Source: Anaeromyxobacter sp. Fw109-5 (GTDB lineage Bacteria; Myxococcota; Myxococcia; Myxococcales; Anaeromyxobacteraceae). From it: a DNA stretch of 64,000 nucleotides. Below, piece after piece: positions 49,351-64,000 of the stretch. The stretch spans positions 1,488,001-1,552,000 of the forward strand of contig NC_009675.1 in assembly GCF_000017505.1 (NCBI RefSeq), read 5' to 3'. Position 1 is the stretch's first letter; every line of letters begins with the position of its first letter. Position numbers and translations under genes: made by a program. The notes under the pieces are model-generated. The model was not told where the DNA came from and did no database searches. It saw only the letters and a program-made list of their open reading frames with translations.

Positions 49351-49490
49351 GCGGGGAACCTGCGCGCAGGCCGCGCCAGCGGGCGCGTCCCTCGACTCCG
49401 CTCCGCCGCGATCGCGTCGGAGCGACGCTCGGGATGAGCGGCCGTTCACGGCCCCCGCCGAGCAGGGGGCGGAGGACGCAGTCCCCCGTC
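49351..49490 (-). repeat. Composite palindromic repeat, inverted shorter copy
   Basis: On the minus strand this matches the array at 63783-63895: GGGGGACTGCGTCC just after the DUF2795 stop, then CCCCTGCTCGGCGGG, and CGCGCAGGTTCCCCGC at the far end. It lacks the CAGCAGC hairpin of the other copy. It is interrupted at 49388-49443 by palindromic element C. It occupies most of the 187-bp gap between addA and DUF2795. Confidence 0.78.
49388..49443. repeat. Palindromic intergenic element, copy C, nested in the composite repeat
   Basis: TCCCTCGACTCC, then GCTCCG/CGGAGC arms (49400-49405 with 49418-49423) enclosing CGCGATCGCG, then GACGCTCGGGATGAGCGG. The first and last blocks match elements A and B. 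The copy replaces three bases of the composite repeat found at the window's right end, so it looks inserted. Confidence 0.65.
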
Positions 49491-49491
49491 C

Positions 49492-49791
49492 CTACGAATG
49501 CTTGGTGGGAACCGCGCCCGTCTCCGTCGCCTCCTTGCCGATGTTCCCGCGGTGCCGCACGTCGGTCGAGAACAGGCCGAAGCGCGCGCCCGCCTCGCCG
49601 AACTGGCGCATCACGTCGTTCGGGCTCGTATAGATCCGGTCGGGGAGCGATCTGAGGAAGTTGATCGCGTCCGCCGGCGCGTCGTTCTCCGCCGCCGCCT
49701 GTGCGAGGTCATCGCGTGAGATGGGGTACTCCACCGCGGACAGGATCGCCGCGGGGCTCCGCTCCGGCCGCTCACCGACTCCACGCGCCAT
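49492..49791 (-). CDS. DUF2795 domain protein
   Basis: A 99-residue soluble protein. Residues 20-65 (VEYPISRDDLAQAAAENDAPADAINFLRSLPDRIYTSPNDVMRQFG) match the DUF2795 family, small proteins found in actinobacteria and myxobacteria with no settled function. The tail (FSTDVRHRGNIGKEATETG) is hydrophilic. AAGGAAGG upstream of the ATG at 49791 is a good ribosome binding site. It is divergent from the aldolase gene, with 188 bp between, and its stop is directly followed by a TGC-loop hairpin. Confidence 0.85.
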   Translation of the reverse strand: MARGVGERPERSPAAILSAVEYPISRDDLAQAAAENDAPADAINFLRSLPDRIYTSPNDVMRQFGEAGARFGLFSTDVRHRGNIGKEATETGAVPTKHS

Positions 49792-60244: not shown

Positions 60245-62671
60245 ATGTCACTCATTCCTCCCAGCGCGCCGGGGACGGCGCAGAAGGACTTCCGGCCGCG
60301 GCTCGCCTGGGCGACGGGGCTCGCGGTCCTGACGTTCCTCACGCTCGTCGGGCGGCTGTACCTGCTGCAGATCCTGAAGGGCGACGAGTACAAGGAGAAG
60401 GCCGAGGAGAACTTCGTGAAGGAGATCCGCCAGCCGGCGGATCGCGGCCACGTCCTCGACCGTCACGGCCGCATCCTCGTCGACTCGCGCCCCTCGTACG
60501 ACGTGACGCTGACGCCGTACTTCTGCGGGAAGCAGTGCGACGAGGTCCTCTCGCGCCTCGCGACCATGCTGGCGATGACGCCGGAGGAGGTGGAGCGGGC
60601 GCGGGGGCAGCTCGCCGGCGCCCGGAAGCTCGAGCGGTTCCGGCCCTTCACGGTGAAGGTCGACATCGCGCGCGAGGAGCTGGACCTCTTCCTCGCGCGC
60701 CAGATGGATCTGCCCGGCGTCGACGTGCAGGCGATCCCGCACCGGAACTACCGGTTCGGCGGGCTCGGCGGGCACCTCATCGGCTACATGAACGAGGCCG
60801 GCCCCGAGGAGCTGAAGCGGCTCAACGAGGAGGTGCAGCGCTCGGGCACGGGTCAGGGGCCGTACCTGCTCGGCGACTACACCGGGCGGCGCGGCCTCGA
60901 GCGGAGGTTCGAGCGGCAGCTGCGCGGCATCGACGGCAAGGAGCGCGTCCCGGTCGACGCGAAGGGGCGCCGGAAGGAGGACGCGGACGAGCTCATCCCC
61001 GAGGATCAGCGCGTCGTGCCGAGCGTCCCCGGGCACAACCTCGTGCTCTCGATCGACTGGCGCCTGCAGGAGGCGGCGGAGGCGGCGTTCCCCGCGACGG
61101 CGGGCGTCGTGCTCGCCATGGACGCGAAGACCGGGTTCCTCCTCGCCCTCGTCGACCGGCCCGCGCCGGACCCGAACAAGATGTCGGGCCGCATCACCTC
61201 GGCGGAGCTCGCCGCCATCCACTCCGACCCGCTGGAGCCCGAGCTGTTCCGCGCGATCCAGCAGCACTACCACCCCGGCTCGACCTTCAAGGCGCTCACC
61301 GCGATCGCCGCGCTGGAGGAGAAGCACTACCACCCCGGCACCACCGTGTTCTGCCCGGGCCACTTCAAGATGGGCAGGCACCGCTGGCGGTGCGACAAGG
61401 ACTCGGGGCACGGGTACGTCGACTTCGCGCACGCGCTCGGCGCGAGCTGCGACGTCTTCTTCTACGAGGCCGGCGCGCGGCTCGGCGCCGACGCCCTCGC
61501 GCGCTGGGCGCGCGAGTTCGGCCTGGGCGTGCCGACGGAGTTCGGGCTGCCGGGCGAGGTCCCCGGCGTCGTGCCCGACGTCGCCTGGCACGATCGCCAC
61601 CTCCGCGGCGGCTACCAGCGCGGCATGCCGGTCAACCTCGCCATCGGGCAGGGCGACGTGAACGTGACGCCCATGCAGCAGGTCGTCTTCTACGGAGCCC
61701 TCGCCACGGGCATCGTCTGGAAGCCGCAGGTGGTGCTGCGCGTCGAGGACGCGGACGGGAAGGTGCTGCAGGAGTTCGCGCCCCAGGAGCGCAGCCGCCC
61801 GCAGGTGAAGAAGTCGACCCGCGACACGGTCATGAAGGGCCTGCTCGCCGCGGTCAACGAGCCCTACGGGACCGCCTACTGGCAGCGCATCAAGGAGTTC
61901 ACCGTCGCCGGGAAGACGGGCACCGCCCAGGTCGTGAAGATGGGCAAGCGCCTGCGCGCCGACCAGGTGCCGTACTTCGAGCGCGACCACGCCTGGTTCG
62001 CGGCGTTCGCGCCGGCGGAGGACCCGGAGATCGTGGTGGTGGTGCTGAACGAGCACTCGGGGTTCGGCTCCACGAACGCCGCGCCGACCGCGATGGCGGT
62101 CATCCGCAAGTACCTGGAGCTGAAGGCGCAGGACGCCGCGGAGCGGGCCGGCGTCGCGCTCTCGCCGCCCGCGCTCGGGGCTGCCCCGGGCGCGGCCCCG
62201 GCGGCGACCGCTCCCGCCCCGGCGGCGGCCGTCGCGGGCCCCGCGGCCCTTCGCGGCGCGAAGCCCGCTCCGACGGGAGCTCCCGCGGCGGCTCCGCCGC
62301 CCAGCCGGGGCGCCCAGGTCGTCCCCACGCCGCTCGCCACCTCCGGCGCCGCGGCGGTGGCGCCCGCGGCGATGAAGCCGAAGGCTACGCCGGTCGAGGC
62401 GAAGAGCCCGCCGGCCGCGGCGAAGCCGAGCACGCCGGTCGAGGCGAAGCCGAGCACGCCGGCCCCGGCGAAGCCCAGCGCGCCGGTCGCGAAGCCGAGC
62501 CCGCCCGTCGAGACGGAGCCGGTCGCCCCGGCCGCCTCGAAGCCGCTCGCGCCGGAGGCCCCGCCGCTCGAGCCCGCTTCGCCGCCGGTCGCCGCTCCGG
62601 CGGGCGCGGCCCCGGCGGCTCCCACGCGGTCGCACGGCGAACGACAGGGAGGGAACGACGGTGGCGCCTGA
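60245..62671 (+). CDS. mrdA: Penicillin-binding protein 2 (elongation transpeptidase)
   Basis: An 808-residue class B PBP that cross-links peptidoglycan in lateral wall growth. It has one N-terminal helix (LAVLTFLTLVGRLYLLQIL), a dimerisation domain with the NFVKEIRQPADRGHVLDRHG motif, then the transpeptidase domain: catalytic Ser346 in HPGSTFK (Lys349), the SCD motif in GASCDVFFY, and KTG at 557-559. The last 170 residues (about 640-808) form an Ala/Pro/Lys-rich tail with KPSTPVEAK-like repeats, absent from E. coli PBP2. It overlaps rodA by 11 bp. Confidence 0.95.
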   Translation: MSLIPPSAPGTAQKDFRPRLAWATGLAVLTFLTLVGRLYLLQILKGDEYKEKAEENFVKEIRQPADRGHVLDRHGRILVDSRPSYDVTLTPYFCGKQCDEVLSRLATMLAMTPEEVERARGQLAGARKLERFRPFTVKVDIAREELDLFLARQMDLPGVDVQAIPHRNYRFGGLGGHLIGYMNEAGPEELKRLNEEVQRSGTGQGPYLLGDYTGRRGLERRFERQLRGIDGKERVPVDAKGRRKEDADELIPEDQRVVPSVPGHNLVLSIDWRLQEAAEAAFPATAGVVLAMDAKTGFLLALVDRPAPDPNKMSGRITSAELAAIHSDPLEPELFRAIQQHYHPGSTFKALTAIAALEEKHYHPGTTVFCPGHFKMGRHRWRCDKDSGHGYVDFAHALGASCDVFFYEAGARLGADALARWAREFGLGVPTEFGLPGEVPGVVPDVAWHDRHLRGGYQRGMPVNLAIGQGDVNVTPMQQVVFYGALATGIVWKPQVVLRVEDADGKVLQEFAPQERSRPQVKKSTRDTVMKGLLAAVNEPYGTAYWQRIKEFTVAGKTGTAQVVKMGKRLRADQVPYFERDHAWFAAFAPAEDPEIVVVVLNEHSGFGSTNAAPTAMAVIRKYLELKAQDAAERAGVALSPPALGAAPGAAPAATAPAPAAAVAGPAALRGAKPAPTGAPAAAPPPSRGAQVVPTPLATSGAAAVAPAAMKPKATPVEAKSPPAAAKPSTPVEAKPSTPAPAKPSAPVAKPSPPVETEPVAPAASKPLAPEAPPLEPASPPVAAPAGAAPAAPTRSHGERQGGNDGGA

Positions 62672-63782
62672 CGTCTCGCTCTCGGCGACGCCGCACCGGC
62701 GGCTGTTCGCCCACTTCCCCTGGCACCTCGCGTTCGTCACGCTCGCCATCTCGGCGATCGGCGTGTGGAACCTGGCGTCGGCGTCGCGGAGCGCCCACGC
62801 GCCGGTCTGGATCTCCCAGGCCGCGTGGATGGGGCTCGGCGTCCTCGTCGCGCTGTCCCTCACGCTGTTCGATCAGCGCACCTTCCACCGCTTCGCGTGG
62901 GTGTTCTACGCGGTGGTGATCGTCCTGCTGGTGCTCGTCTACGTGAAGGGCCGCTACGTGATGGGGGCGCGGCGCTGGCTCACCATCGGACCCGTGAACT
63001 TCCAGCCCTCCGAGCTCGCCAAGCTGTCCGTCGCGCTCGCGCTGGCGAGCTGGTTCCACGGCGACGCCGAGCGGCGCAAGGACGGCTACGGCCTCGTCGG
63101 CCTGCTCATCCCGTTCGCGATCATCCTCGTCCCGGCCGCGCTCGTGCTGAAGCAGCCGGACCTGGGCACCTCGCTCATCGTGATGTCCGTCGGCTTCACG
63201 CAGATCCTGTTCGCGCGGGTCCGCTGGAAGACGCTCGCGCTGCTCGCGGGCGTGGCGGTCGTCTCGGCGGGGCTCCTCTACCCGCACCTGAAGCCGTACC
63301 AGAAGAAGCGGGTGGAGACGTTCCTGAACCCCCAGTCGGACGTGCTCGGCGCGGGCTATCACGCCACGCAGTCGATGATCGCCGTCGGCTCCGGGCAGGC
63401 GCTCGGGAAGGGCTGGGGGCAGGGCACGCAGACGTACCTGTCGTTCCTCCCGGAGCAGCACACCGACTTCATCTTCTCGGTGTGGGCGGAGGAGCACGGG
63501 TTCCTGGGCTGCCTCCTGCTGCTCGCCCTCTACTTCGTGCTGGTCGCGAGCGCGATCGACATCTGCGGCAACGCGCGCGATCGCTTCGGCCACTTCCTCG
63601 CCGCTGGGCTCACCGGGATGCTCTTCTGGCACGTCGCCATCAACATCGGGATGGTGATCGGGCTCCTGCCGGTGGTGGGCGTGACGCTGCCGCTCATGAG
63701 CTACGGCGGCTCGTCCGTCATCGCGATCTACACCGGGATCGGGCTGCTCGCGAACGTCGGGATGCGACGGTTTGTCAATTAG
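62661..63782 (+). CDS. rodA: Peptidoglycan glycosyltransferase RodA (SEDS family)
   Basis: A 373-residue SEDS polymerase with ten helices. Signature blocks are GARRWLTIGPVNFQPSELAKLS near residue 100, LKQPDLGTSLIVMSVGF near 167 (with the catalytic-loop Asp), GSGQALGKGWGQGTQTYLSFLPEQHTDFIFSVWAEE near 245 and LPLMSYGGSSVIA near 345. Together with PBP2 it makes glycan strands for elongation. FtsW is the close alternative, but the mre/mrdA context gives RodA. The GTG start lies inside the mrdA gene. A long hairpin array begins directly after the stop. Confidence 0.96.
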   Translation: MAPDVSLSATPHRRLFAHFPWHLAFVTLAISAIGVWNLASASRSAHAPVWISQAAWMGLGVLVALSLTLFDQRTFHRFAWVFYAVVIVLLVLVYVKGRYVMGARRWLTIGPVNFQPSELAKLSVALALASWFHGDAERRKDGYGLVGLLIPFAIILVPAALVLKQPDLGTSLIVMSVGFTQILFARVRWKTLALLAGVAVVSAGLLYPHLKPYQKKRVETFLNPQSDVLGAGYHATQSMIAVGSGQALGKGWGQGTQTYLSFLPEQHTDFIFSVWAEEHGFLGCLLLLALYFVLVASAIDICGNARDRFGHFLAAGLTGMLFWHVAINIGMVIGLLPVVGVTLPLMSYGGSSVIAIYTGIGLLANVGMRRFVN

Positions 63783-64000
63783 ACGGGGGACTGCGTCCCC
63801 CGCCCCAGCAGCGAAGCTGCTGGGGCCCCACCCCCTGCTCGGCGGGGCCCGTGAACCTGCGCGCCCGCTGGCGCGGGTACGCGCAGGTTCCCCGCCGGGA
63901 GGGGCTTCGCCCCTCCCCGCGCGTTGCGCGGGGCCCCTCCCGCAGGTTCCCCGCGCGTTGCGCGGCCCCTCCGGCAGTGAGGTTCGACCGCGAGACGCGA
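63783..64000 (+). repeat. Array of consecutive perfect hairpins behind rodA
   Basis: Five perfect hairpins in 149 bases: 63785-63801 (7 bp, loop TGC), 63803-63825 (10 bp, GAA), 63853-63890 (11 bp outer stem, 5 bp inner), 63897-63917 (9 bp, TTC) and 63915-63933 (8 bp, GTT), plus a repeat of the last at 63951-63965. No gene is seen. The segment 63783-63895 recurs inverted at 49351-49490. The array continues to the window edge or near it. Confidence 0.85.

Follow-up and report, generated by a model that had tools for sequence, protein, structure and literature searches.

Palindromes that carry a REP inside them have been described in A. variabilis (GTAG-15), T. roseum (GTAG-23) and H. neapolitanus (CGTC-1); T. 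roseum has, in addition, hundreds of target palindromes that are empty (Di Nocera et al. 2013, PMC3733652). Anaeromyxobacter is absent from that study (PMC3733652), and the nest from Anaeromyxobacter sp. Fw109-5 reported here adds a well-supported case to a form of REP insertion already known in 2013. The nest lies in a stretch of 64,000 nucleotides, called the window throughout, which corresponds to positions 1488001-1552000 of the 5,277,990-bp single-contig genome (G000). Coordinates such as 49351-49490 and 63783-63895 are those of the window, while those of copies elsewhere refer to the genome; copies of the outer and the inner repeat were gathered genome-wide by BLAST, pattern searches and targeted stretches. 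Very probably, a REP-like palindrome of a family termed here REP-I, about 57 bp long, entered the 3′ arm of hairpin 1 in a pre-existing outer repeat at the 3′ end of a DUF2795-domain gene, after the split from the sampled relatives.

The intact form of the outer repeat is found directly after a rodA/ftsW-family gene (62661-63782, plus strand; PF01098), whose 3′ end it abuts. It occupies 63783-63895 on the minus strand, ending at the rodA stop codon, with matching sequence that goes on to about 63943, and consists of four hairpins: hairpin 1 (AACCTGCGCG..CGCGCAGGTT around a smaller stem), hairpin 2 (GGCCCCGCC..), hairpin 3 (CCCAGCAGC..GCTGCTGGG) and hairpin 4 (GGGGGAC GCA GTCCCCC). The stretch at 49351-49490 is a degraded copy of the same family. 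As proposed in the first-pass annotation, both of its ends align with the reverse complement of the rodA copy, and the three common blocks could be located: GCGGGGAACCTGCGCG at 49351-49366, GTTCACGG with CCCCGCCGAGCAGGGGG from 49444, and GACGCAGTCCCCCGT at 49475-49489, the last being an exact match to the rodA copy. Alignment to intact copies assigns 49351-49386 (plus strand) to the 5′ arm of hairpin 1 and its inner stem CCGCGCCAGCGGGC, as far as the junction, and 49444-49469 (plus strand) to the end of hairpin 1 (GTTCACGG) followed by the core CCCCCGCCGAGCAGGGGG. The left arm of hairpin 1, the core and hairpin 4 are thus retained, hairpin 3 is absent, and 57 bp are lodged within the right arm of hairpin 1. 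The annotation had also noticed that one hairpin was missing, which we can place at 49470-49474 (plus strand), where the intact copies have TGGGGCCCC-AGCAGC..GCTGCTGGGGC (TGGGGCCCC...GGGGC). The remnant of the terminal hairpin 4 (GACGCAGTCCCCCGT; 49475-49490, plus strand) adjoins the stop codon of the DUF2795-domain gene (49492-49791, minus strand; an open reading frame matching PF11387 with 56.8 bits), the 3′ end of which abuts the outer repeat. The fold z-score of the nested copy, -1.30, is little better than that of shuffled sequences, compared with -5.69 for the intact rodA copy; once interrupted and without hairpin 3, the window copy would have lost most of its 3′-end array structure.

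An uninterrupted hairpin 1 reads AGCGGGCGC, GCAG and GTTCACGG in succession, and the inner element takes the place of GCAG (or CAG), with a loss of three to four target bases at the junction and no target-site duplication at the junctions of 49387-49443. The annotation had described 56 bases (49388-49443) where the other copy has three; the junction is the same, with one ambiguous G, and moving it by 1 nt gives an element of 57 nt at 49387-49443 (plus strand), bounded by the family-conserved GT and GCC. It is composed of GT-CCCTCGACT, a central part with CGCTCCGC, CGCGATCGCG and TCGGAGCG, and CGCTCGGGATGAGCG-GCC, and has an internal stem CGCTCCGCCGCGA/TCGCGTCGGAGCG. The REP-I consensus is GT-CCCTCGACTCCGCGCCTCCGCTGnCGCGGAGnCGCTACGCTCGGGATGAGCG-GCC. 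Among the 27 genomic REP-I-class copies from which the ends were determined, 26 have GT in front of the unit and 24 have GCC behind it, and conservation drops beyond these edges. Family ends and insertion junctions, derived independently of each other, agree: the nested REP-I spans exactly GT (49387) to GCC (49443). The inserted bases do match a palindromic family other than the outer one, as first suggested: in a genome-wide BLAST with the window copy, outer-repeat matches had E-values of 5e-9 to 1e-7, while inner-element matches reached down to 5e-16 at dozens of loci, so that the similarity of these repeats is not due to chance. A list of inner-like candidates comprises 73 sequences in the genome, including some that match by chance or in coding sequence. 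At many loci (e.g., L004, L015, L021, L022) REP-I lies within GGTCGN-type hexamer microsatellites (ggtcggggtcgcggtcg), which border it on one side or on both.

HUH/Y1 transposases act on single-stranded, folded DNA. A single-strand mechanism of this type would fit the nest, since the targets are hairpins and there is no target duplication: a REP-like short palindrome would land in the 3′ arm of hairpin 1 in an existing outer repeat, with the loss of three to four target bases, mobilised perhaps by an HUH/Y1-like enzyme that acts on folded single strands and favours hairpin targets. The main rival to insertion is template switching or recombination between palindromes at replication, through which the REP would have been copied in and three to four bases swapped with no transposase involved. 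We regard this as a possible but doubtful course of events. It would account for the missing target duplication, for the replacement of a few bases instead of a clean insertion and for the lack of a linked transposase, and hairpin modules of the outer family have been swapped among many sequences. On the other hand, REP-I family ends coincide precisely with the junctions on both sides, which is more like the movement of a defined unit, and REP copy number differs sharply between species, as in mobile DNA, with 44 BLAST matches to the REP-I query in G000 vs one to two in each of the relatives G003, G004 and G005. Our confidence in insertion and in this exchange overlaps, because the latter disputes the mechanism and not the gain of 57 bp.

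The outer repeat could also have reached this locus already carrying its REP, in which case no insertion took place here. Such spread is suggested for other nests: seven composites in G000 with a second subfamily, REP-II, in hairpin 1 have a derived right junction in common (about GACGTCGAAG before GGCCCCGCC), for which a single insertion with later spread of the composite is the best reading, and at the treS locus the whole composite of outer repeat and REP is found in G000 only, so that the outer repeat also reaches new sites or gets lost. The window copy, however, holds REP-I and not REP-II, has a junction of its own that differs from the REP-II composites, and no second copy of its composite was found in the genome-wide search. 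Moreover, at the orthologous DUF2795 locus of G008 an outer repeat lies at that stop codon, its hairpin 1 is intact and it holds no REP. Of the other relatives compared, G003 and G004 have no outer repeat at this locus, G006 has an outer variant in which hairpin 3 holds a REP, and the contig of G005 ends there. An arrival of the ready-made composite is thus improbable here, and since a close relative is uninterrupted at the orthologous site, the insert is derived and lineage-specific. The hairpin-1 stem of G008 is CGGTCGCG, not CCTGCGCG, and because of this difference the outer repeat at its DUF2795 stop codon might also stem from gene conversion or from independent acquisition.

It is very unlikely that the 56-57 bp belonged to the outer repeat from the start and have since disappeared from its other copies. 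In G000, around half of the loci of the hairpin-1 type do have some REP in that place. Against this, the genome has eight uninterrupted hairpin-1 copies at six other loci (811548, 1551700, 1868530, 2207598, 2942866 and three in tandem at 4436721-4437228), and in the relatives none of 47 outer copies has a REP in hairpin 1, where stem pairing is compensatory, whereas two have a different REP (CCTTCGACAGGCTCAGG or CCTTCGGCAAGCTCAGG) in hairpin 3. The inserts in G000 also belong to two REP subfamilies with different junctions, and dozens of loci have the same REPs but no outer repeat. Given the intact copies in the same genome and in all sampled relatives, the extra bases are an insertion, with empty sites among the paralogues as well as at the orthologous locus. 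The 56 bases are not present in most outer copies, so that the outcome which the annotation had named as speaking against an insertion did not occur. Similarity by chance can also be considered, as short GC-rich hairpin motifs recur randomly at three mismatches in DNA of such high GC content, but can be dismissed in view of the inner-element E-values, the dozens of copies and the conserved loci in relatives.

A polyprenyl-synthetase-like gene (a weak Pfam match of 23.6 bits, below the cut-off of 27) has the outer repeat at its 3′ end too. At this second locus REP-II occupies hairpin 1 in G000, while hairpin 1 is intact in G008 and in G001, the latter with a REP in hairpin 3. A previous assignment of this gene as truA was dropped, as Pfam points weakly to a polyprenyl synthetase instead. 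Hairpin 3 also serves as host in G000, for REP-II at 2475825 and for another REP at 5114170, and REPs are nested within REPs at 1811561, 1863630, 2353367, 2864371, 3059724, 3592485 and 4837610. Taken together, the second orthologous locus, the hairpin-3 REPs and the REP-in-REP nests indicate that nesting in palindromes is recurrent. Hairpins are recurrent REP hosts and may be preferred targets. The proposal of the annotation that the inner repeat moves or has moved holds for the past, by virtue of the empty copies in this genome and in relatives, while no movement was observed in real time; the alignment of outer copies that it recommended has yielded uninterrupted as well as other nested copies. 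At 2864371 and 3059724 the loop of a REP unit holds a second, inverted REP. At the remaining five of these positions the loop of REP-I holds another REP (GTCCTTCGCCAGGCTCAGGAC) and most share flanks; these nests look like copies, for the most part, of one event.

The annotation further advised a check for a RAYT-type transposase gene elsewhere in the genome, and this found no curated-level match. With the NCBIfam RAYT model, three full-length (56.8-59.2 bits) and two short RAYT-like frames were retrieved, all five scoring 30-59 bits against a cut-off of 80, and the Pfam Y1_Tnp model alone gave one sub-threshold gene. Within about 1.5 kb of the RAYT-like frames there is no REP-I or REP-II pair, and no outer core is found nearby; a linked REPtron was rejected on these grounds, and the RAYT link raised by the annotation is not supported. 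The three RAYT-like Y1 transposase genes are located at L031/L250, L248 and L249. Tandem CGGACCGGTTACTCTCGGCGGGGC units are present at positions 2521-2720 of L031 and ACCCAGAGTAATT-type inverted repeats in L248, which may be the cognate ends of the respective RAYT-like genes.

The outer repeat was matched in each of nine genomes from the genus, with 2 to 47 matches per genome. In a species-level genome collection, from which the window's own genome may be left out, its exact 28-base core occurs only in Anaeromyxobacter terrae and A. soli. Across 24 aligned copies, the stems of hairpins 1 and 4 alter on both sides with pairing kept: 97.2% of the stem cells are paired, vs 85.4% in shuffled and at most 49.2% in slid alignments, and the covariation score is 0.291 vs 0.081 and at most 0.064, respectively. 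Of 44 copies, 26 have an opposite-strand stop codon within 40 nt past the end of the repeat (nearly all of them at 12 nt or less), compared with 4% of random positions; by this proximity and strand, the outer repeat is oriented and placed as a 3′-end element. Covarying stems, together with an opposite-strand stop codon that usually lies no more than 12 nt from the end of the repeat, point to a probable 3′-end hairpin array that is transcribed, with a putative role in termination or in protection of the mRNA 3′ end. Of the features of an intrinsic terminator, stable hairpins and the position after the stop codon were observed, but no U-run after the hairpins is visible in the outer-repeat sequences. 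No Rfam family matched above its gathering score in the window, and no description of these Anaeromyxobacter repeats was found in the open-access literature searched; the array appears to be undescribed.

Tandem arrays of the outer repeat are present in G000 at 4436649-4437228 (L081; three full copies, 175-bp spacing) and at 3154826-3155535 (L080; four copies, 208-bp spacing). A distinct subfamily with the core GGCCCCGCGTAGCAGGGG (545689, 2307344, 3362703, 4838335, 4370593 and 5114161) has long conserved flanks (taaacgaccgtgcgcgattcgg..., atggctaaaccatggcgtgattcgcg) and resembles a larger mobile unit. In the draft relatives G005 and G008, contigs often break in or beside the outer repeat (e.g., G008:C139, G005:C60).

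More tentatively, the whole may be seen as a genus-wide, undescribed 3′-end hairpin array whose folded hairpins are favoured landing sites for several REP subfamilies, giving rise to matryoshka-like nests of REPs in REPs and of REPs in arrays. Because several subfamilies land with different junctions, the target would be defined by the folded palindrome and not by a sequence motif. What the locus offers is a clean REP insertion, supported by an orthologue, for which both the exact ends and the empty site are available. It is direct evidence for the movement of REP-like palindromes that have no linked transposase and that repeatedly use hairpins as hosts. The outer repeat, whose stems covary and which lies beside stop codons, is in addition a candidate 3′-end regulatory element for the whole genus.

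When compared with known systems, the arrangement resembles BIMEs and the mosaic intergenic repeats of E. coli and Neisseria in its interleaved short repeat modules between genes, but the outer repeat has other sequences, a fixed hairpin order and a fixed orientation to the stop codon. The inner element is REP-like, being a short palindrome in many copies, for part of which an intergenic position was counted, whereas its main class of 52-57 nt exceeds the usual REP unit of 20-40 bp, a difference explained by the extra internal hairpin. With GTAG REPs and REPtrons mobilised by RAYT (TnpA-REP) it shares small palindromes, tens of copies and RAYT-like Y1 genes in the genome, but here no REP pair flanks these genes, and the GTAG label was rejected, as the ends are GT...GCC with no unpaired GTAG. 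CGTC-tagged REPs (PMC3733652) are similar in having no dedicated transposase known and in the CGTC-like end (TCGTCCC, GCGTCCC, GGGTCCC) often seen in the inner element. They differ in their length of 20-40, their stem starting with AT and their CCA-like tail, and this label was rejected as well, given that CGT precedes CCC in about 14 of 27 copies and the stem does not start with AT. Lacking the defining features of both families, the inner element was filed in neither. Closest are the nests of PMC3733652, which likewise consist of a short palindromic repeat family inside a longer palindrome; unlike in those nests, the host here consists of four successive hairpins whose stems covary and which lie next to stop codons, it is used by several REP subfamilies, and an orthologous empty site is shown.
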